Assembly: GCA_016213455.1 (NCBI GenBank)
Contig: JACRAG010000026.1
Span: 1-12,208 of the forward strand
Direction: 5' to 3'
DNA: 12,208 nt
DNA from: Anaerolineae bacterium
GTDB lineage: Bacteria > Chloroflexota > Anaerolineae > Anaerolineales > Anaerolineaceae
The position numbers were made by a program, and so were the translations under genes. Below, piece by piece: positions 1,993-12,208 of the stretch. Numbering within the stretch: position 1 is the first letter of the stretch; every line of letters begins with the position of its first letter. The notes beneath the pieces were generated by a model, which worked only from the letters and a program-made list of their open reading frames with translations, was not told where the DNA came from and searched no databases.

Positions 1993-2883
1993 TTACGGAA
2001 AATCCAATGTGATGGTGAAATCCCAATTGGCAAACAGGCTCTCGTCTCCATTGGCCGATACCGGCTCGACCAGAATACGCACAGCATAGGTGCCGTCTTT
2101 GACCACCGGGCCGTTCTCGCTCCAGGCAATCGCGTAGTTATACAAGGGCCAGGGGTTGCAATCCGGCTCGCCGCCGCCAAAAATGCAGTAGCCCGCGTTG
2201 TTCTCGGTGCGGCTGTACACCTCATTCCCATTTTCGTCCAATACGGTGAAGAATACGCGTTTCACCCCATCACCATCCTTGGTCGTGCCAATCTCCTTGA
2301 CCGCCATGCGGATCAGGAAATCCGGCGAGGTAATCACCGAACCATCCAGGTTAAGGGGCGTGCCGTCCGGCTGGGAATTGCTCAAAGCCGGCGGCTTGGG
2401 CCGGGGCGGCGCAGCCACGTCCACTCTGGGCAGGCTGTTGACATCTACGTTGCACTTCACAAATTCCGCGCCCGCACTGACCCAGCCCACCTTGCCGCTG
2501 GACGGGTCGCTGACCTGCACCCAGGTTCCACCGGGGAAACCGGAGGGGTTGAAACCCTGCGGGATGACCACGGCATCTTTTTGCAGCGTGCCCAGGGGTG
2601 GATTGAAGGCTGTGCCCGGCCCGCTGCGGAAGTTCAATCCCTGCTGTACCACGCACTGTGGACCGGTGGTGGGGCTGGGCTGCGGCGTGGCGCTGGGGCC
2701 AGGAGTCGGGCTGTCTGCCACCGTCGGGCTGGGAGCCGGCGTATCCGAAGGGGCTGTGGTGGGTTCCACCACCACGGTGACCACAAATGGCGTCTGGGTG
2801 GGCTGTTCCTCCGGCTGACCGGGGACGCATCCCACCACCAGCAGCGCCGCCAATGCCATCCAAACCAGGCTGCGAACTTTCAT
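1993..2883 (-). CDS. Lipoprotein with Pro/Thr linker, SH3b domain and C-terminal beta-rich domain
   Basis: The chosen start (2883) gives 296 residues. It is preceded by a full AGGAGG site at 2889-2894 with 5-base spacing. An in-frame ATG 25 codons upstream has no such site and would put a hydrophilic leader before the signal peptide. Residues 2-18 form a type II signal peptide ending in the lipobox VVGC (Cys19), so the protein should be lipid-anchored on the outer face. Residues about 26-75 are a Thr/Pro/Ser linker. Residues 77-144 look like a bacterial SH3 (SH3b) domain, with the NFRSGPGT signature (84-91), GTWVQV and GWV, bracketed by Cys77 and Cys144. Residues about 180-296 form a beta-rich, perhaps Ig-like domain containing Cys233 and Cys242 and ending in DFTITLDFP. 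SH3b domains commonly bind peptidoglycan or peptide ligands, but the ligand here is unknown. It is the third gene of the STAND operon, one base after the ATPase stop, so translation is probably coupled. Confidence 0.85.
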   Translation of the reverse strand: MKVRSLVWMALAALLVVGCVPGQPEEQPTQTPFVVTVVVEPTTAPSDTPAPSPTVADSPTPGPSATPQPSPTTGPQCVVQQGLNFRSGPGTAFNPPLGTLQKDAVVIPQGFNPSGFPGGTWVQVSDPSSGKVGWVSAGAEFVKCNVDVNSLPRVDVAAPPRPKPPALSNSQPDGTPLNLDGSVITSPDFLIRMAVKEIGTTKDGDGVKRVFFTVLDENGNEVYSRTENNAGYCIFGGGEPDCNPWPLYNYAIAWSENGPVVKDGTYAVRILVEPVSANGDESLFANWDFTITLDFP

Positions 2884-2884
2884 T

Positions 2885-5719
2885 TCAACCTCCTGCTTCC
2901 GGCGCGCCGAGCTGCTGCTGCAGTTCATCGCGATAAGGCGTGCACAGCTTCCCGGCAATGTCGTCTTTCAAAATCCGGTCTGTGGATGCCTGCCCCATGG
3001 TGATGCACCGGTCATAAGCCGCCAGCGCACGCTCGTACCAGGCGCGGCTGGACTCACTCGCTCCCGCGGTCTCCTCCAGAAAACCCAGCCACTGGTAGGC
3101 TGTAGCCAGGGTCTGTACCGACTGCGCCAGGTAGCGCGCCTGCCCTTCCGCTTCCAGCGGGGCAAGGATGCCCTCCAGCACAGCCACAGACTGCTGCACC
3201 CGTTCGCCAGCTTCGTCACTGCGCCCCAGGCGGTAAGCCAGCTCACCCTGCAAACGCAGCGTGGTGCCGGCCCCCAATTGCGCCGCCAGGTGCACCGGCG
3301 ACCCCGCCGGGTCTGGCGGCATGGCAGCCACCGACTCGTAGGTCTGCAGGGCCTGCCTGGCAAAATCCTCGGCCGCCAGCAGGCTGGCTTCCGGTGCGTC
3401 CTCGCCCGCCGCCAGCCGGCGCGCGGAGGCCAGGTACACGCTGCCCAGGCCCACGGCTGCCCGCGCATACTGGCTGTCCAGGCTCAACGCTTTCTGAAAA
3501 GCGCCCTCAGCTTGATTGGTCAAAGCATCGCGGCGGTCCGCATCGCGATCAGAAAGAAACAGGCTTTCGCGCCCCAGAAAAAACTGCACCGCGGGGATAT
3601 CCGCCGAGAGCTGCGCTGCGCGCTCAAATGCCTGCAGAGCCGCCGCCGGGTCGCCAAAACTGGCGCGCGCCAACCCCAGAGACACCCAGGCCAGGGTGGA
3701 GGCCTGCCGGTTGACGTCCGCTTCTACCTCCAGCCCGGGGTTGCGCGCATCCGCCAGCAGGATGGGGGCCGACCGGTAACCGCCTTGAATCTCCTCGAAG
3801 CGGTAGCCCATCTGCGGCGCCAGCCAGAACTCCAGCGTCAGGCGCGCCGGCTGCACCGACTCGTCCACCTGCCCGAAGACGATCATCTGCGCGTTCAGGC
3901 GTTCTGCCATCGCCGCAGCCGATGCGCTGCGCTCTTCGGGCGTGCCGCCCTGCACCACCCCGATGGTCACATTCTGGCGGCGCAGGACCGGACCATCTTG
4001 CCAGACCTGGATATTTGCCTCGGCAGCCAGCTCCGCGGTGAGTTGATTACCCACCCAGCCGCTCAGTTTGGCCCCACTTTCGCCCGGACCGGAAAATTCG
4101 GCCACGGCGATATTGAAAATGCCATCCATGCGCGCCGGGGTGAGAAAGCGCACGTACAGGCCGCTCAGGAAGAAGACCGCAATCAGCGCTGCCAGTGCGC
4201 CCACCCCCGCCAGCGGCAGGAACACGCGCCGCAGCCGCTGTCCTTCGCGTTCGCGGCGCAGTTCAGCGTCCACGGCATGCTGTGACGCCTCCAGATATGC
4301 CGCCTCATCCAGGCTGAGCTGGTCGGCGTGCGCCGCAGCCCAGACCTGGGCTTCCGCCAGGCGCTTGCCGCGATACAGCGCGCCGCTGTCACGGCCCAGG
4401 CGCAGCCAGCCGGCTGTATCTTCGGTCAGTTGGCGGTGCAAAATCAACCCCTCGCGGTCCTGCGCCAGCCACTGGCGCAGGGTGGGCCATTCGCGGATCA
4501 GGGCTTCGTGCGCCACCTCCACCGATTTCTCCCCGCCCGGCCCGGCGCTGCCGGTGATCACCAGGCGCGCATCGGTCAGGATGGACAGCACCGCCTCGAT
4601 GGTGACCGGGTCGGTGGATCGGGTGATCAGCTCAGAGAAGGAAGCCCGCCGGCGGGTATCCTTGGCATCTTCGTCCAGTTCAGCCAGGTGCAGGAAGATC
4701 ATGCGCGCGATGGGCTGCTGCTCGGCGCTCAGGCGGCGGTTGAAGACCGCCTCGGCGGTTTTGGCAATGGCGCCGCGCACCCCGCCCGCCTCGGTGTAGC
4801 TGGAAAGGGTCATGGTGCGCCCGCGCCGGCGCAGCCAGGTCTCCAACAGGGCGTGCGATAGCAGCGGCAGTGCGCCCGGTTCAGCGCCGATGTCGTCCAG
4901 CATCACCTCCACCAGCCCGTCCTGGATCTTCCAGTTGCCCAGCGCAGCCGGCTGGACGATGGCGCGGAACAGCTCATCGCGGTTCATCGCGCCGATGAAC
5001 TCCTGGCGGCGCGCCACCCGCTCGCGCAGGCGGTCATACGCCGCCAGGCGCGCGTAAAAGTCCGCGCGCAGCAAGATCAGCACATGCAGCGCATCCGCCT
5101 CAATCCCCGCCAGCAATTGGTCGATGAATATGCGCCGCTCATCTTCGCTGCGGCATTGGGTGAAAACCTCCTCAAACTGGTCCACCACCAGCAGTACGCG
5201 CGTCTTGCGCTGCGAGAGCGCTTTCACCAGCCCGCCGGGGTCGCCGGTCAACGTCTGCGCCGGGATCCCCAGCGCCTCGCCCAACGCGTCCAGCGGGTGC
5301 GCCGTGGGGGTGAAAATCTGCCGCTCCCAGCTTTTGCTGCCGATCGGGGGCAGCGCCCCGTCCGCCAGGCGGACGCCCGCGCGCAGCGCGGGGATGAGAC
5401 CGGCGCGCACCAGTGAGGATTTTCCAGACCCAGAATCGCCGATCACCGCCAGGAAGTTGTCCTCGCCCAGGCGGGCAGCCAGGCGGGCGGTGAGCATTTC
5501 GCGCCCAAAAAAGCGCGGCGCATCCTCTTCGTCAAAGGAATTCAACCCCTGGTAGGGTGGATCGCCCGGCTCCGGCGGCAGCGCCTCCAGCTCGCGCGCC
5601 TCGGCGGCGCCGATCAGCGTGGATTTGATGTTGATCGTCGCACCGCGAAAATCGCCGGAGAGGTTGTACTCATCCCCTGCGGCAGGTTTTTCCGGGGCCG
5701 GGCGTTTGGTTCTGGGCAT
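2885..5719 (-). CDS. Membrane-spanning nSTAND ATPase with N-terminal adaptor motif, TolB-like domain and TPRs
   Basis: This 944-residue protein starts with a polar tail and the motif NLSGDFRGATINIKSTL (19-35), nearly identical to one in the small protein encoded upstream. An nSTAND1-type ATPase follows: PYQGLNSF (55-62), FFGRE (70-74), Walker A GDSGSGKS (94-101, Lys100), Walker B LLVVDQFEE (176-184, Asp180), LRADFY (217-222), LPLLSHALLETW (284-295), GGVRGAI (312-318) and VEVAHEALIREWP (400-412). A single transmembrane helix lies near 499-521. Beyond it, residues about 534-635 (FNIAVAEF, then AERLNAQMIVFGQ) resemble the N-terminal domain of TolB-like proteins, and about 672-930 look like tetratricopeptide repeats. 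STAND proteins are signal-switch ATPases that oligomerise on sensing a ligand. The charge pattern suggests the ATPase is cytosolic and the TolB-like and TPR part is outside, which is an inference. The gene starts 12 bases after the small protein gene and lacks a clear ribosome site, so coupling is likely. The ligand and effector are not known. Confidence 0.9.
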   Translation of the reverse strand: MPRTKRPAPEKPAAGDEYNLSGDFRGATINIKSTLIGAAEARELEALPPEPGDPPYQGLNSFDEEDAPRFFGREMLTARLAARLGEDNFLAVIGDSGSGKSSLVRAGLIPALRAGVRLADGALPPIGSKSWERQIFTPTAHPLDALGEALGIPAQTLTGDPGGLVKALSQRKTRVLLVVDQFEEVFTQCRSEDERRIFIDQLLAGIEADALHVLILLRADFYARLAAYDRLRERVARRQEFIGAMNRDELFRAIVQPAALGNWKIQDGLVEVMLDDIGAEPGALPLLSHALLETWLRRRGRTMTLSSYTEAGGVRGAIAKTAEAVFNRRLSAEQQPIARMIFLHLAELDEDAKDTRRRASFSELITRSTDPVTIEAVLSILTDARLVITGSAGPGGEKSVEVAHEALIREWPTLRQWLAQDREGLILHRQLTEDTAGWLRLGRDSGALYRGKRLAEAQVWAAAHADQLSLDEAAYLEASQHAVDAELRREREGQRLRRVFLPLAGVGALAALIAVFFLSGLYVRFLTPARMDGIFNIAVAEFSGPGESGAKLSGWVGNQLTAELAAEANIQVWQDGPVLRRQNVTIGVVQGGTPEERSASAAAMAERLNAQMIVFGQVDESVQPARLTLEFWLAPQMGYRFEEIQGGYRSAPILLADARNPGLEVEADVNRQASTLAWVSLGLARASFGDPAAALQAFERAAQLSADIPAVQFFLGRESLFLSDRDADRRDALTNQAEGAFQKALSLDSQYARAAVGLGSVYLASARRLAAGEDAPEASLLAAEDFARQALQTYESVAAMPPDPAGSPVHLAAQLGAGTTLRLQGELAYRLGRSDEAGERVQQSVAVLEGILAPLEAEGQARYLAQSVQTLATAYQWLGFLEETAGASESSRAWYERALAAYDRCITMGQASTDRILKDDIAGKLCTPYRDELQQQLGAPEAGG
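2889..2894 (-). promoter_or_regulatory. Strong ribosome binding site inside the end of the STAND gene
   Basis: AGGAGG on the reverse strand lies 5 bases before the ATG at 2883 and within the last codons of the upstream ATPase gene, whose TGA occupies 2885-2887. It fixes the start of the lipoprotein and indicates translational coupling. Confidence 0.75.
5619..5665 (-). repeat. Copy of the shared N-terminal motif (STAND gene)
   Basis: This segment encodes NLSGDFRGATINIKSTL in the STAND protein. It matches the segment at 6047-6097 in the small gene: 13 of 17 residues are identical and the rest mostly conservative. The DNA is also clearly similar, with many third-position differences, so this is a diverged duplicate of an adaptor module rather than a recent copy. 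Confidence 0.75.
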
Positions 5720-5731
5720 GGGTCAGGTGGG

Positions 5732-6115
5732 TCAGCGCGCCATCTGCGCGATGGCGGCGACAATCTGCGAGGCGATGCCCACCACGGCGGGCATCACATC
5801 CGCGATGTTCTTCGCCGCTGCCTTCAACCCCTCGCCGCTGATCTGCAGCATGGTCTTGTTGGGCTTTTCCTCTTTGGCCTGCTCCACCAGCGTGCGCGCC
5901 GTCAGCGCCACCGCCTCGGCGTCCTCTTTCTTTTCGGGTGGAACCTTCTCCAGTTCCTTTTGAAGCTGCTTGATCAACTTTTGCAGCTCTTTGCGTGAAT
6001 CCTCATCGCCCGAACGCATTTCGCCCACGCTCTGCTGCACATTTTCCAGCGTCGATTTGATATTGACAATCGAGCCGCGGAAATCGCCCGTCAGGTTAAT
6101 TTTGTCCCCGGTCAT
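5732..6115 (-). CDS. Small protein with STAND-shared N-terminal motif, coiled coil and hydrophobic C-terminal helix
   Basis: This 127-residue protein is the first gene of the leftward operon. It starts at the ATG at 6115 with a modest GAGG site 5 or so bases upstream. Residues 7-23 (NLTGDFRGSIVNIKSTL) repeat the motif found at residues 19-35 of the STAND ATPase. Residues about 37-82 are rich in Lys, Glu, Gln and Leu and likely form a charged helix or coiled coil, with a break at VPPEKK (58-63). Residues about 95-125 (GLKAAAKNIADVMP, then VVGIASQIVAAIAQMA) form a small-residue-rich amphipathic to hydrophobic helix with no charges after 105 except Arg127. I cannot name a characterised family. 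The layout of adaptor motif, linker helix and hydrophobic helix fits a membrane-active or oligomerising partner of the ATPase, but this is an inference. No catalytic motif is visible. A self-inhibitory subunit or a scaffold is an equally possible role. Confidence 0.85.
   Translation of the reverse strand: MTGDKINLTGDFRGSIVNIKSTLENVQQSVGEMRSGDEDSRKELQKLIKQLQKELEKVPPEKKEDAEAVALTARTLVEQAKEEKPNKTMLQISGEGLKAAAKNIADVMPAVVGIASQIVAAIAQMAR
6047..6097 (-). repeat. Copy of the shared N-terminal motif (small protein gene)
   Basis: This segment encodes NLTGDFRGSIVNIKSTL at residues 7-23 of the 127-residue protein. It is the partner of the copy at 5619-5665. Glycine-flanked beta-prone stretches of this length can act as homotypic adaptor or amyloid-type signalling motifs, but nothing in the sequence proves that here. 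Confidence 0.75.
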
Positions 6116-6315: not shown

Positions 6316-6369
6316 GTTTGGAGATCGTTTACGGCACTTCGTGCCGTAAACGATCTCCAAACTTTTTTT
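6316..6369 (+). terminator. Perfect 22-bp hairpin followed by seven T
   Basis: Arms at 6316-6337 and 6341-6362 are exact reverse complements with a 3-base loop (TTC), followed by TTTTTTT at 6363-6369. A run of six A at 6304-6309 lies just left of the hairpin, so the structure could also stop leftward transcripts. The form is that of a strong, possibly two-way rho-independent terminator. Its place between two divergent genes is unusual because no annotated gene ends here. It could end an unannotated small RNA, mark a lost gene, or be part of a short palindromic element. Confidence 0.7.
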
Positions 6370-6518: not shown

Positions 6519-7871
6519 ATGGAAGCAACCCCTGGCCGCATGGAACGGGCCATTGTGATCGGGGCAAGCGTCAGCGGTCTGCTGGCGGCCCGCGCGCTGG
6601 CCAACCACTTTGAGCGGGTGATCGTCGTGGAGCGCGACGTCCTGCCGCCCCCCGGACAACCGCGCAAGGGCGTGCCGCAGGGCCGGCATGCACACGTCCT
6701 GCTCTCACGCGGGGTCGATCTGTTGGAAGCCTTCTTCCCCGGCCTGACCCAGGAACTGGTCAGCCAGGGCGCAATTGCAGGCGACCTTTCGGAGACGGTG
6801 CGCTGGTTTTCCATGGGCGCGTACACGCGCAACTTCCCCTCCGGGTTGAAATCCATGCAGGCTAGCCGCCCGCTGCTGGAAGGCACCCTCTACCGCCGGC
6901 TGTGCGCGCTGCCCAATGTGACCGTGCTGCAAAACCACGACGTTACCGGCCTGCTCACCCGGCCATCCGTCAGGGACGGAGAACTGCGCGTCAACGGCGT
7001 GACAGCGGTGGATCGCGCCAAGCCGGGTCCTATGGAAATGGAACTGGAAGCGGACCTGGTGGTGGACGCCGGTGGGCGTGGATCGCGCAGCCTGGCCTGG
7101 CTGGAAAGCCTGGGCTACCCGCGCCCTGAAGAAGAACACATCAAGATGAACCTCTCCTACACCTCGCGCGTCTTTCGACGCCTGCCCGAACATGCCAACG
7201 GGCAAAGCCCGGTGGTGATCTTGCCCAGCTTCAACAACCGGCGCGGGGGCACCATGCTGGCGGTGGAAGGCGGGCGCTGGGTGGTCACCCTGGCGGGCTA
7301 CCTGGGTGACGCCGCCCCGGCCGACCTGGATGGTTTCATCGAGTTTGCGCGCAGCCTGGATGCCCCCGACTGTTACGATATTCTCAAAACCGCCGAACCG
7401 CTGAGCGAGGCCAGCCAGTACAAATATGCGGCCAGCCAGCGCCGCCGTTTTGAAAAACTCACCCGGTTCCCCGAAGGCCTGCTGGTCTGTGGCGACGCGA
7501 TGTGCAGCTTTAACCCCATCTATGGGCAGGGCATGACCACCGCCGCCTGCGAGGCCGAGCTGCTGGACAGCTGCCTGCGCCAGGGCCTGACCGGCCTGGC
7601 CCCGCGCTTCTTCCGCCGCGCCAGCCGGCTGCTCGATTCACCCTGGGATATCGCCGCCGGGAGTGACCTGGCCTACCCCGAAGTGGAGGGCAGGCGCGCC
7701 CCCGCCATGCGCATGGTGGGGCTATACCTGGACCGCCTGCTCAAAGCCTCGCGGCAGGACACTGTGCTGAACCTGGCCTTTCAGCGGGTCACCAACCTGA
7801 TCGACCCGCCTGCCAGCCTCTTCCGCCCGCACATCGTCTGGCGCGTGCTGTTCATGCAGCGCAGCGCCTGA
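6519..7871 (+). CDS. FAD-dependent monooxygenase/epoxidase-like oxidoreductase
   Basis: The chosen start gives 450 residues and has a GAGGA site at 6509-6513 with 5-base spacing. An ATG 17 codons upstream would overlap the candidate promoter. The N-terminal Rossmann fold carries the FAD-binding loop VIGASVSG (13-20), a GxSxxG variant of the usual GxGxxG, and the ribose-binding acid in VVERD (Glu38). GVPQGRHAH follows in the early helical region. The second FAD motif LVCGDA, with Asp326, lies in LLVCGDAMCSFNPIYGQGM, as in group A flavoprotein monooxygenases and their relatives such as polyether epoxidases, geranylgeranyl reductases and flavin halogenases. The usual halogenase WxWxIP motif was not seen. 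The protein is probably soluble or peripherally bound and oxidises or reduces a lipophilic substrate that cannot be named from sequence. It is flanked by its own candidate promoter and terminator, so it is probably a single-gene unit. Confidence 0.85.
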   Translation: MEATPGRMERAIVIGASVSGLLAARALANHFERVIVVERDVLPPPGQPRKGVPQGRHAHVLLSRGVDLLEAFFPGLTQELVSQGAIAGDLSETVRWFSMGAYTRNFPSGLKSMQASRPLLEGTLYRRLCALPNVTVLQNHDVTGLLTRPSVRDGELRVNGVTAVDRAKPGPMEMELEADLVVDAGGRGSRSLAWLESLGYPRPEEEHIKMNLSYTSRVFRRLPEHANGQSPVVILPSFNNRRGGTMLAVEGGRWVVTLAGYLGDAAPADLDGFIEFARSLDAPDCYDILKTAEPLSEASQYKYAASQRRRFEKLTRFPEGLLVCGDAMCSFNPIYGQGMTTAACEAELLDSCLRQGLTGLAPRFFRRASRLLDSPWDIAAGSDLAYPEVEGRRAPAMRMVGLYLDRLLKASRQDTVLNLAFQRVTNLIDPPASLFRPHIVWRVLFMQRSA

Positions 7872-7915
7872 CCGCCTTCCAGCCCGCTTCCGAACGCTGC
7901 AGCCCGTCAGTTCAA

Positions 7916-7953
7916 CCCCGCGCAGACCGCCACTGCGTGGGGCCTTTGTTTGC
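7916..7953 (+). terminator. Terminator-like hairpin after the FAD gene
   Basis: CCCCGCGCAG (7916-7925) pairs with CTGCGTGGGG (7933-7942), ten pairs including one G-U, with a 7-base loop. A broken T-tract (CCTTTGTTTGCTG) follows. It begins 45 bases after the stop of the FAD gene. The T-run is interrupted, so efficiency is uncertain. Confidence 0.55.
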
Positions 7954-8040
7954 TGTTCCGGCATCGGCCTACAGCCATACCAACCTTTCAATCCACGTTG
8001 GAACGCCCGTCATTTATTAATTACCGCACTATCGCGACAC

Positions 8041-8069
8041 TTGAAAAGTCGCTATACTGTATTGTGTAT
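8041..8069 (+). promoter_or_regulatory. Candidate promoter for the propeller-serine dehydratase unit
   Basis: TATACT at 8053-8058, in the context GCTATACTGT, is a good -10 hexamer and resembles the GCTATAGTGT before the FAD gene. TTGAAA at 8041-8046 is too close to serve it and would instead suit a poor hexamer near 8064. The segment lies about 100 bases before the start at 8165, in the most AT-rich part of the gap. Confidence 0.3.
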
Positions 8070-8164
8070 CAATGAGACCAATATTATCAACGTAACCCAT
8101 CCTGATACGGCCGCGGCAGGTATTGTCCGGCCTGTTTTTCCGTTTGGCACAGAAGGGAATGACC

Positions 8165-9850
8165 ATGTACCTGACCAGCTTGCGCGCACAACAAATCGGC
8201 AATGCGACCAACGGGAGATGCCTCGTCCTGGTGGAATGGACCTACGGCAACCAGATTCCAGATGTTCTCGAGCTGTATTACGCACCCGCAACCACCGGAA
8301 CCTGGCACCCCATTGATCAGCTGCCAGTCAATGGATCGAACGATCCGATCCGCAAAGAAATTACACTGCCGGCTCCGTCTGTGGGAACCATCTACGCCGC
8401 CCCGCGTAAACTCGACTCCCAACGCACGTTGAAGGACCGCCAACCCGATGATGAGGGGATTGACCGCTATTGGGAAAGTTTTGCGCTGGGTTTTCGCATC
8501 GCCCTGGAAGGCGCACCCAACCCGGAAGAGAACCAGCGCAAGTGCCGCGTCGCGCCGAAGATCACGGACATCCGGCCTGATGTGGGGGTAATCAAAGTCT
8601 TTTGGAACAATCCTGAAGGCTACAACAACTTTAAAGTAGAGTGGTGGAACCCGCCAGCCGGCGCTCAACCCTTCCAGGCCAGCACCAAAGACAAACACTT
8701 TGTTCTGGAACGCGCGCTAAAAGGCAGAACCTATGCCTTCCGGGTGGCAGGACTGCACGAAGGCCTGTTCGATGACTGCCAATCACCCTGGTCGGAGGTG
8801 CGCGAGATCACCATGCCGGACAATTTGGGGTACGACACCCCCGTTTTTGATGCCAAAACAACCCTCACCGCGCTCTCGCGCGACGACGACTTCATGGATA
8901 TCTTCACCGTCGGCGCAGATGGTCGGGTGCGCAGCGCGTGGTGGGACGGCGATTGGCACATGTGGTTCACCCTCGGCAGCACCGTCTTTCCCGCGCACAG
9001 CCACCTCGCCGCGCTTTCGCGCGACACGGACTTCATGGACCTGTTTGGCGTCGGCTTCGATGGGCGGGTGTGGACGGCCTGGTGGAACGGCAATCCCTGG
9101 CGCGATTGGACGCCGCTGGACGGCGCCTTATTCGATCCCGGTGTGCCGGTCGCTGCGCTCTCGCGCGACACGGACTTCATGGACCTCTTCGTCGTAGGCC
9201 GGGACCAGACCCTGCACAGCAGCTGGTGGAACGGCAACCCGTGGCGACCGTGGTTTGCTATGCCGGGCGCCACCTTCCCCTCCGGAACACCGGTCACGGC
9301 GCTTTCCAGGCACAGCGATCACATGGAAGTATTCCTGGTCGGCCAGGATGGTCAGGTGCACGGCAACTGGTTTGACGGGCAATGGCATGACTGGTACATC
9401 CTGGGCGGAGAAACCTTCCCACTCCTCACCCCCATCGCCGCCATCTCCCATGACACAGATCATATGGAGATCTTCGCAGTCGGTGAAGATGGAGTGGTGC
9501 GCGGCAACTTCTGGAACGGCAACTGGCAGGGCTGGTTCCGCCTGGACGGACAGGATTTCGAACACCGCACGCCCATCGCCGTCCTCTCACGCGATCCTGG
9601 TCACCAGGAAATTTTCCTCGTCGGCCGGGATGGAAAGGTATATCACAACTGGTGGACCGGCAACTGGTCCGGCTGGAGTCACCTGATCAGCCACATCCAG
9701 GACCATCCGCTGTTCCACCCACCCATCGCAGCCCTTTCGCGCAGCACCCGATCCATGGATGTTTTCACCATCGCCCAAACCCCCGGGCAGGAGTTTGTGT
9801 GGAGCGACTGGTGGTGGCTCAGCTGGCGCAACTGGTTCCCGCTGCTCTAA
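8165..9850 (+). CDS. FN3 plus seven-bladed PLL-like beta-propeller (lectin-like) protein
   Basis: The ATG at 8165 is preceded by AGAAGGGA (8151-8158) with 6-base spacing. ATGs at 8159 and 8123 are less well placed. The product is 561 residues with no signal peptide or membrane segment. Residues 1-125 are beta-rich and unassigned (perhaps a diverged FN3-like domain). Residues 130-217 fit fibronectin type III (ITDIRPDVGVIKVFW, then YAFRVAGL). Residues from about 233 to the end hold seven repeats of 47-50 residues on the pattern ALSRDTDxMDxFxVGxDGxVxxxWWNGxWxxW. The repeat Ser codons fall at 8876, 9017, 9161, 9305, 9446, 9587 and 9737. Seven such units make one closed propeller, like the PLL/PHL lectins of Photorhabdus, whose blades carry the same DxF..G.DG...WW.G.W signature and bind fucose-type sugars. 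Sugar binding here is inferred. The last blade is degenerate and Trp-rich. The serine dehydratase gene starts 20 bases later. Confidence 0.85.
   Translation: MYLTSLRAQQIGNATNGRCLVLVEWTYGNQIPDVLELYYAPATTGTWHPIDQLPVNGSNDPIRKEITLPAPSVGTIYAAPRKLDSQRTLKDRQPDDEGIDRYWESFALGFRIALEGAPNPEENQRKCRVAPKITDIRPDVGVIKVFWNNPEGYNNFKVEWWNPPAGAQPFQASTKDKHFVLERALKGRTYAFRVAGLHEGLFDDCQSPWSEVREITMPDNLGYDTPVFDAKTTLTALSRDDDFMDIFTVGADGRVRSAWWDGDWHMWFTLGSTVFPAHSHLAALSRDTDFMDLFGVGFDGRVWTAWWNGNPWRDWTPLDGALFDPGVPVAALSRDTDFMDLFVVGRDQTLHSSWWNGNPWRPWFAMPGATFPSGTPVTALSRHSDHMEVFLVGQDGQVHGNWFDGQWHDWYILGGETFPLLTPIAAISHDTDHMEIFAVGEDGVVRGNFWNGNWQGWFRLDGQDFEHRTPIAVLSRDPGHQEIFLVGRDGKVYHNWWTGNWSGWSHLISHIQDHPLFHPPIAALSRSTRSMDVFTIAQTPGQEFVWSDWWWLSWRNWFPLL
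9017..9186 (+). repeat. 26-base exact repeat between propeller blades 2 and 3
   Basis: The same 26 bases occur at 9017-9042 and 9161-9186, exactly 144 bases (48 codons) apart, encoding SRDTDFMDL in both blades. A close variant begins at 8876 in blade 1. DNA identity across blades 1-3 is higher than in blades 4-7, which suggests more recent blade duplication or gene conversion in that part. Confidence 0.7.
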
Positions 9851-9870
9851 ACTGTGGTTTAATGGGAGTT

Positions 9871-11079
9871 ATGCAGTCGATTAAAGAATTATTCCGCATC
9901 GGTTACGGGCCGTCCAGTTCGCACACCATGGCCCCGCGGCGCGCTGCCGAGCTGTTCGCGGCGCGCAACCCACAGGCCGCCGCGTTTCGCCTGACACTCT
10001 ATGGCAGCCTGGCTGCCACCGGGCGCGGTCACATGACCGACAGCGCCGTGCTCCAGGCGCTGGCTCCCCGCCTGGTGGACATTATCTGGAAACCCGAAGC
10101 CGCCCTGCCGCTGCACCCCAACGGCATGGAATTCGAAGCTCTGGACGCCGCCGGCGCAGCGCAGGACTTCTGGCGCGTCTATTCTTCCGGCGGCGGCGCG
10201 CTGCTGGACGAAAACGCAGCCGACACGGCCCCCATCATCTACCCGCTCAATACGATGAACGAAATCCTGCGCCGCTGCACCGCCAGCGGGCAAACCTTCT
10301 GGGAGTATGTCGAAGCCTGCGAAGGGCCGGAGATCTGGGATTTTCTGGCTGAGGTGCGCAAGGTGATGTACGCCGCCGTGCAGCGCGGCATCCACGCCGA
10401 GGGCGTGCTGCCGGGTGGGCTGGGCGTGTCACGGCGCGCCTGGCAGTTCTATCGCAAGATCATGCTGGCGGGCGGGCACCTGGTGCGCGAGGGCTATCTG
10501 CCGGCTTATGCCCTGGCGGTGGCTGAGGAAAACGCCACCGGCGGGCTGATCGTCACCGCGCCCACCTGCGGCTCGTGCGGGGTGTTGCCTGCCGTGCTGC
10601 GCCACATCGAGGACACGGTGGAAACGTCCGAAATCCACGTGCTGCGCGCGCTGGCTACCGCCGGCTTGATCGGCAACCTGATCAAAGCCAACGCGTCCAT
10701 CTCCGGCGCCGAAGTGGGCTGCCAGGGCGAAATCGGCGCAGCCTGCGCCATGGCTGCCGCGGCTGGCGCACAGTTGATGGGCGCTTCCATCCGCCAGATC
10801 GAGTACGCCGCCGAGATGGGTCTGGAACACCACCTCGGCCTGACCTGCGACCCGGTCAATGGGCTGGTGCAGATCCCCTGCATCGAGCGCAACGTTTTCG
10901 CCGCCACGCGCGCCCTGGACTGCGCCACCTTCGCCGTGTATTCCGACGGCAGCCACCGCGTCTCGTTTGACGAGGTGGTCATGGTGATGAAGCAGACCGG
11001 TCAGGACCTGCCCAAGCTGTACCGCGAGACCGCCGAAGGCGGCCTGGCGATCACGTATCGCTTCCCGAAAAGGAACTGA
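9871..11079 (+). CDS. sdaA: L-serine dehydratase (L-serine ammonia-lyase), single-chain iron-sulfur type
   Basis: The enzyme converts L-serine to pyruvate and ammonia in the cytosol, using a [4Fe-4S] cluster instead of PLP. From the ATG at 9871 it is 402 residues. That start yields MQSIKELFRIGYGPSSSHTM, which matches how short family members begin. GGGAG stands only 2 bases before it, and an ATG at 9862 is an alternative. The N-terminal part has the substrate loop PSSSHTM (14-20) and YGSLAATGRGHMTD of the beta domain. The alpha part has APTCGSCG (Cys233, Cys236), GCQGEIG (Cys284), LTCDPVNG (Cys326) and IPCIERN (Cys337). The 42- and 11-residue spacing of Cys284, 326 and 337 equals that of the cluster ligands known in the Legionella enzyme. 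The C-terminal cysteine that plugs the active site in that enzyme is absent; the chain ends RFPKRN. It follows the propeller gene by 20 bases, so co-transcription is likely but functionally unexplained. Confidence 0.93.
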   Translation: MQSIKELFRIGYGPSSSHTMAPRRAAELFAARNPQAAAFRLTLYGSLAATGRGHMTDSAVLQALAPRLVDIIWKPEAALPLHPNGMEFEALDAAGAAQDFWRVYSSGGGALLDENAADTAPIIYPLNTMNEILRRCTASGQTFWEYVEACEGPEIWDFLAEVRKVMYAAVQRGIHAEGVLPGGLGVSRRAWQFYRKIMLAGGHLVREGYLPAYALAVAEENATGGLIVTAPTCGSCGVLPAVLRHIEDTVETSEIHVLRALATAGLIGNLIKANASISGAEVGCQGEIGAACAMAAAAGAQLMGASIRQIEYAAEMGLEHHLGLTCDPVNGLVQIPCIERNVFAATRALDCATFAVYSDGSHRVSFDEVVMVMKQTGQDLPKLYRETAEGGLAITYRFPKRN

Positions 11080-11666: not shown

Positions 11667-12208
11667 TTACTCTTTCACCCAGAACTCAGCGTACAGCGGG
11701 CAGAAGGTGAAGTTGTCGTCGATGCGCAGCAGCTTCCAGTCCGTGCGGTATTTGCCGGTCACATCTCCAACTTTGAGCACCACCACCAGTTCCACTTCCT
11801 CGCCCGGTTTGACCGTCTTGGGCAGGTCAAGAATGGATTTCTCAGCGATCTGATCGCCGCCCACCTGGACCAGGTCAAAATATTCCTTCTCCCAGGTAGC
11901 CGGGCCAAGGTTGCGTACCGTCCACAGGATGGTGACCATGCTGTTGATCTTCATCGTCGCCCCATCCACCCGGTCCTGGCCCACCAATATGCATAGAACA
12001 GGCGCCGGGGTGTTGGTGGCGGAAGGCGTGACGGTGGCTGACGCAGTGGGCGTGGGCGAAAGACGGATGATCGCCGTATTGGTTTCGGTGGGGCGCGGCG
12101 TGCGCGTTGCCGCCGGCGAGGGCGTCAGCGTGGGGGTTTGCCCCTGGCTCAACTTGGCTTCTGCGGTCAGCCGCGCAGCTTCCATTTCTGCGTCCTGGGT
12201 CTGTTTGG
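11667..12208 (-). CDS. Protein with Thr/Pro linker and NBR1-like Ig domain, N-terminus beyond the window
   Basis: The reverse frame is open from the right edge to the TAA at 11667-11669, about 179 visible residues. An ATG at 12185 exists, but the codons upstream (KQTQDAE) continue the same Gln/Ala-rich helix, so the true start is probably outside the window. The visible part has a Gln/Ala-rich helix, then a linker rich in Thr, Pro and Ser over roughly 50 residues, then a beta-sandwich from about DGATMKINS to the C-terminal FWVKE. The pattern TILWTVRNLGPATWEKEY, LPKTVKPGEEVEL and GKYRTDWKLL is that of the Ig-like domain first described in NBR1, which is frequent in secreted Chloroflexota proteins. 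It is probably a lipoprotein or membrane-anchored surface protein, but that end is not visible. Ligand unknown. Confidence 0.8.
   Translation of the reverse strand, partial: KQTQDAEMEAARLTAEAKLSQGQTPTLTPSPAATRTPRPTETNTAIIRLSPTPTASATVTPSATNTPAPVLCILVGQDRVDGATMKINSMVTILWTVRNLGPATWEKEYFDLVQVGGDQIAEKSILDLPKTVKPGEEVELVVVLKVGDVTGKYRTDWKLLRIDDNFTFCPLYAEFWVKE

Follow-up and report, generated by a model that had tools for sequence, protein, structure and literature searches.

For bacteria, pairing between a NOD-like receptor (NLR) and its effector by a short motif has been proposed for the BASS motifs and effectors with Bell domains (Dyrka et al., 2020, as presented in PMC7889193, PMC12261475, and PMC8086366), and in fungi the amyloid signalosomes PNT1/HELLP, NWD2/HET-S, and FNT1/HELLF are described as parallel tag types between which no cross-seeding takes place (PMC7889193). 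Here we analyzed a stretch of 12,208 nucleotides from an Anaerolineae bacterium (GCA_016213455.1, contig JACRAG010000026.1; the genome is 62% complete), designated the window in the following, which contains on its minus strand, in this order, the genes of a small protein of 127 residues, of an nSTAND1 ATPase of 944 residues, a member of the signal transduction ATPases with numerous domains (STAND), and of a lipoprotein-like protein with a weak SH3-like domain. The small protein and the ATPase share a motif of 17 residues, and we consider it likely that this motif is a homotypic recognition tag, by which the STAND protein, as the sensor, is linked to a helical partner. When related loci are compared, both partners switch their tag type jointly, with the helical module of the partner staying recognizable.

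As described in these sources, the BASS/Bell systems share with the window the two-gene cluster, in which a short motif is present at the N-terminus of an NLR (here also in the loci L005-L009) and on the neighboring small helical-bundle protein, as well as the high number of motif families, which occur also with other effector domains. However, the effector motif is located C-terminally to the helical domain there, whereas it is N-terminal in the standalone proteins and central in the fused proteins of the present set, and a C-terminal position was found in none of the standalone and fused proteins examined. Moreover, the review names mainly actinobacteria and cyanobacteria, whereas our set is from Chloroflexota. 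The fungal signalosomes likewise consist of an NLR with an N-terminal motif (PNT1 also has TPR repeats) and an adjacent helical executor, but the executor motif is C-terminal there, prion-forming motifs are reported, whereas amyloid formation is putative for the present tags, and the nSTAND1 proteins described here differ by a predicted membrane helix (PMC7889193). In the pairs of effector-associated domains (EADs) described by Kaur et al. (2020, 2021), a STAND and a peptidase protein from one locus likewise have non-enzymatic parts that match, and EAD7 or caspase domains occur on module proteins of our set. In contrast to these pairs, the shared part is a motif of 17 residues and not a folded domain, and no folded adaptor domain shared by the two window partners was found, the start of the small protein being disordered in the model.

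The shared motif, NL[ST]GDFRGxxxNIKSTL, is identical at 13 of 17 positions in the two window proteins (Table 1). BLASTP of the small protein against the STAND protein gave an alignment of 40.8 bits (E = 5e-9), in which the motif is followed after a gap of 23 residues by a short ELExxPPE likeness, and the three remaining matches between the two proteins had E-values of at least 12. The local score is 84, compared with 37.1 ± 5.1 (maximum 54) in 500 shuffles of the STAND protein. Both results confirm the first-pass annotation of this DNA, which had placed the copies at the same residues with the same number of identities and had described a STAND ATPase and a small partner that are otherwise unrelated, to which only the ELExxPPE stretch has to be added. 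Of the 13 identical residues, eight have the same codon, and 10 of the 17 third codon positions are alike; in the motif copies of five related loci, 5-8 of 10-14 codons are identical. The likeness is therefore one at protein level and not due to a recent DNA copy.

The ATPase matches nSTAND1 (PF20703) with 412 bits against a cut-off of 27.1 (E = 4.9e-123), contains the P-loop GDSGSGKSS, and has a TPR-like C-terminus. Its gene starts 12 nucleotides past that of the small protein. Since the 54 residues before the nSTAND1 domain consist of the motif region and a linker leading directly into nSTAND1, without the helical module according to Pfam, the motif is not the start of a globular domain common to both proteins, a finding that the first-pass annotation had named as a refutation of its proposal. 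In 10 aligned nSTAND1 proteins, mean column identity is 0.35 for residues 1-14, 0.79 for residues 15-35, 0.64 for residues 36-48, and 0.82 for the following part; the motif is a conserved island within a variable STAND N-terminus. A search with residues 10-50 found nine proteins, including that of the window, and all of them contain nSTAND1. Furthermore, a hydrophobic stretch (≥2.19 on the Kyte-Doolittle scale) is present in all 11 motif-bearing nSTAND1 proteins checked, near residue 500-540 or, in the longer open reading frame (ORF) of L016, near residue 643. By the positive-inside rule, the Arg-rich stretch preceding the predicted membrane helix suggests that the STAND N-terminus is located inside the cell.

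The genome surveys covered Chloroflexota, many of the genomes being metagenome-assembled. A scan of the genome collection gave 13 loci, and in six loci (the window and L005-L009) the gene of a motif-bearing nSTAND1 protein comes directly after that of the small protein. When 400 genomes of the order were searched for the motif (E ≤ 0.001), eight had a match, six of them with the pair side by side, including two of the genus of the window (Anaerolinea sp. and Anaerolinea thermolimosa), and two with a fused protein alone. All six genomes of the order that have a motif-bearing nSTAND1 protein thus have the adjoining small protein (6/6), which is the opposite of the missing co-occurrence that had been named beforehand as evidence against a pair. 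A search of 396 genomes belonging to the class yielded the motif in 10 of them (E ≤ 0.01) and members of the small-protein family in 20 (E ≤ 0.001). A second motif-bearing protein is present in 10 of the 11 genomes found with a motif-bearing nSTAND1 protein. Five further genomes (G035, G114, G401, G402, G403) have a motif-bearing nSTAND1 gene without an adjoining small gene. In four of these, a motif protein resembling caspases or EAD7 proteins is encoded on a separate contig, assigned by Pfam for G035 and by likeness for G114, G401, and G403, and in G402 no second motif-bearing protein was seen. Another motif-bearing ORF, of 739 residues, is present in G639. The helical module was not seen in the second ORF of G403, because the ORF appears to reach the end of a chimeric contig just past the motif. 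By eye, this caspase-motif ORF (L109, G403:C847, 135-1283) ends in an apparent adapter read-through, and the contig is probably chimeric.

An AlphaFold2 model of the small protein has five helices (residues 19-31, 38-56, 60-81, 87-103, and 109-126) and a mean predicted local distance difference test score (pLDDT) of 83, with residues 1-12 disordered (pLDDT <50). The Kyte-Doolittle maximum of 1.89 is at residue 104, in the region of the last helix. The small protein passes the Pfam family DUF4404 (PF14357) with 34.2 bits against a cut-off of 27, whereas several fused modules fall below this cut-off. It has 323 homologs at E ≤ 0.001, and a relaxed motif pattern is kept in 206 of 207 homologs among the best 120 of 323 and the best 120 of 480; column conservation is 0.82 for the motif as well as for the last helices. 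The module is also the C-terminal part of caspase-like (PF00656), EAD7 (PF19960), LRR-Roc-COR, and kinase-Roc-COR proteins, and the motif precedes it on the N-terminal side in all standalone and fused proteins examined. The first-pass annotation had regarded the N-terminal position as common to both copies, which holds for the window pair but not for the fused relatives, where the motif is central between the caspase or EAD7 domain and the module. Apart from this, the module with a GD/IG-rich stretch before it ends Roc-COR-like GTPase proteins in L045, L046, L048, and L050-L052 (Roc-COR by Pfam for L045 and L046), and L010 contains at 7211-10375 two EAD7-motif-module proteins and two short ORFs like their EAD7 part, adjoining genes that by eye resemble parA and parB.

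Six motif types were counted (type letters are our own). Type A is that of the window and is found in six loci, and types B, D, and E (GDIxxSxxIAIGxGA, QAGxxxYxxSAHxxGxGSA, and SGQVAVG) are Gly-rich and not helical-looking. In L013, an EAD7-like protein carries DKITVGDITNSKGVAIGRGAS, and the next gene, encoding a P-loop protein with DUF7779 and TPR repeats, carries DHIKTGHISDSEAIAIGRGAT. Three further tag types in L103, L104, and L108 are each present also on the adjoining STAND, and L108 has the layout of the window (small protein, then STAND, both tags N-terminal) with a different tag. A GGDYAEGxxDKRxGTF block is common to L093, L094, L095, and L097 and their NB-ARC, NACHT-FGE, or nSTAND1 neighbors. 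The motif is also matched weakly in L026/L059 (E = 8.8e-4), where NNH5 and a STAND-like core flank the match, and more weakly still in L060 (E = 0.0076), between NNH2 and NACHT. The domain company of motif and module comprises Peptidase_C14, EAD7, NNH5, NNH2-NACHT, and FGE-sulfatase. In six loci of other tag types the module is 26-50% identical to that of the window and is therefore recognizable where the tag is not.

For a test of this matching, the up to 120 residues before the module were scored against the STAND part before the P-loop in 17 loci with a STAND gene near the module protein. Cognate pairs reached a mean of 80.9 and non-cognate pairs 46.1 (p = 1e-5; 0 of 100,000 permutations reached the observed value). 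With 11 representatives, of which one is of type A (L005-L009 and L094 omitted), the means were 79.5 and 43.7 (p = 2e-5). When the helical module was scored instead of the tag region, the values were 30.4 and 28.6 for 17 loci (p = 0.076) and 30.1 and 29.9 for the representatives (p = 0.44). In the first 16 loci, to which L063 was added later, the STAND was the top-scoring ORF of its own locus 14 times. P-loop neighbors that from their sequence resemble ABC transporters, FtsK, AAA, MoxR-like proteins, helicases, or GTPases were excluded, and the partners in L013, L099, L101, and L103, without a Pfam NTPase above cut-off, were called STAND from their P-loop and company. A test with six representatives gave p = 0.002, on which we do not rely as its loci were chosen by tag type. 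L055/L093 and the overlapping loci L010/L111, L013/L042, and L007/L064 were counted once each. Between L055 and L093, 5760 of 5761 bases agree; one contig stretch thus occurs in two genomes that are placed in different families, and one of the bins is probably contaminated.

Several points weigh against a homotypic tag. The STAND neighbors were chosen by eye, after the similarities had already been displayed, and the control with the module is not wholly flat for 17 loci. Among the ORFs of its own locus, the STAND ranks fourth in L101 and ninth in L099, and in L013 it beats an antisense ORF by 57 to 56. For two of the 17 pairs, L099 and L063, the STAND neighbor has no clear match, the alignment in L063 being one of low complexity alone, and in L099 and L100 the best tag match is a neighbor without P-loop (an adjoining protein of 504 residues in L099). 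Within the six loci of type A, cognates match no better than non-cognates (78.2 vs. 75.6, p = 0.16), and therefore no fine specificity was seen. A STAND-like P-loop ORF was not seen in 27 of 28 further module loci, several of them on short contigs. Finally, the AlphaFold2 models of the small protein and of L011 contain no beta structure and place the second half of the motif in helix 1, and the upstream GD repeats of L011 form no strands; structure predictors of this kind are not known to model refolding that is driven by assembly.

The modeled helix leads to a different explanation, namely that the STAND motif mimics the small protein where its helix 1 begins and docks in the bundle of that protein by a heterotypic peptide-in-groove contact without assembly between tags. 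In the small-protein model helix 1 begins at residue 19 and so includes the last residues of the motif, the helix of L011 begins even at the motif Phe (pLDDT of the block 78-96), and in the examined ORFs carrying both, the end of the motif is the start of the module. However, the Gly-rich types B, D, and E precede the same module and match their STAND neighbor, the groove would need to change along with the tag, and the modules gave no significant cognate signal against the STAND N-termini, so that we regard helix mimicry as unlikely. Quite unlikely is also an ancestry without contact, in which both N-termini were drawn from one stock of GD-rich linker repeats that serve solubility or expression or act as a spacer, and neighbors match through local duplication or assembly. 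This would agree with the GD-rich repeats common upstream of the module, with the type A cognates, and with the stretch on some non-STAND neighbors, but the 17-residue island is strongly conserved as protein with diverged codons, and G035, G114, G401, and G403 have kept the motif both on nSTAND1 and on unlinked motif proteins. An ordinary EAD-type adaptor pairing, with the motif as the visible edge of a small folded adaptor domain in both proteins, is very improbable. Such pairs are described for STAND and peptidase genes in PMC7159879, PMC8195603, and PMC10907252, and EAD7 is present on some module proteins, but the STAND has just 54 residues before nSTAND1 with no helical module, and the small protein is disordered in its first 12 residues; in addition, a Pfam search at E ≤ 0.1 found no EAD in the two window proteins. 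The homotypic pair proposed by the first-pass annotation is well supported, as the pairs co-occur and, from locus to locus, the partner has a motif type that follows the type on the STAND near it.

The coupling by a homotypic tag is best read as resembling NLR-linked amyloid signaling, the amyloid part being putative. The STAND would be anchored in the membrane with the ATPase inside and the TPR part outside, on the side on which the third-gene lipoprotein would also lie. An outside trigger could then lead to STAND oligomerization and gather several N-terminal tags. These would recruit the small protein by its own, identical tag and probably template that tag into a beta-stacked, amyloid-like assembly. 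The gathered modules may then open or align with one another, with a possible action of the hydrophobic last helix on the membrane; in the relatives, caspase-like or EAD7 domains would be brought together in this way. The outcome would probably be regulated cell death or growth arrest upon threat. The bare module may act on the membrane by its last helix or serve as a scaffold. A link to defense is suggested indirectly by the domain company and by the PADLOC candidate PDC-M14B, which matches the module partially (E = 1e-6, profile positions 169-262 of 267) and not over the whole profile. The chances are about even that in Chloroflexota a single helical module, for execution or assembly, is combined with interchangeable address tags of at least six types, each shared with a neighboring STAND, to form parallel channels to caspases, to EAD proteins, or to the module on its own. 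In that case, the tag would work in an N-terminal or central position, a placement that the review on amyloid signaling discusses for RHIM and leaves open for other motifs. Such a scheme would bring caspase-like proteases and EAD proteins of Chloroflexota into one circuit with STAND sensors, at whose head is a STAND that has a predicted membrane helix and, probably, a sensor part and a lipoprotein on the outside. Since the module is common to these naturally occurring pairs of receptor and partner while their tags differ, the loci make the specificity of short motifs testable by tag swap.

Table 1. Features of the three-gene locus in the window.
Feature	Position	Strand	Basis	Remarks
Small protein P0001, 127 residues	5732..6115	-	ORF	First in three-gene row; N-terminal motif and predicted five-helix module
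Motif copy in small protein, residues 7-23	6047..6097	-	Sequence comparison	NLTGDFRGSIVNIKSTL
Helical module of small protein, residues 24-127	5735..6046	-	AlphaFold2 model	Hydrophobic last helix (IADVMPAVVGIASQIVAAI)
nSTAND1 ATPase P0002, 944 residues	2885..5719	-	PF20703, E 4.9e-123	Second gene
Motif copy in STAND, residues 19-35	5615..5665	-	Sequence comparison	NLSGDFRGATINIKSTL
nSTAND1 domain, residues 55-445	4385..5557	-	Pfam	
Predicted transmembrane helix, residues ~499-521	4157..4225	-	Kyte-Doolittle 2.49	Arg-rich stretch precedes
Lipoprotein-like protein	1993..2883	-	ATG at 2883; lipobox-like LLVVGC (by eye)	Third gene; bacterial SH3-like domain

The protein of the third gene reaches 26.8 bits for SH3_3 in Pfam, just below the cut-off of 27. 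ORFs that are related among themselves and probably of the third-gene type lie 3' of the STAND gene in L006-L009, L015, and L016; in this neighbor comparison the window gene itself was masked by a longer antisense ORF. SH3_3 is above cut-off for the ORFs after the STAND gene of L006 and L007, and a Pfam search with that of L009 gave no family. Between the small-protein gene and a divergent FAD oxidoreductase gene, a 20-pair hairpin, the maximum of the scan, with a T run on its plus-strand side is located at 6316-6362. The window also encodes a protein weakly like a fungal fucose lectin (8123-9850, below cut-off), an L-serine dehydratase (9652-11079), and a protein with an N_BRCA1_IG Ig-like domain (11667-12206; PF16158, E = 3.1e-11).

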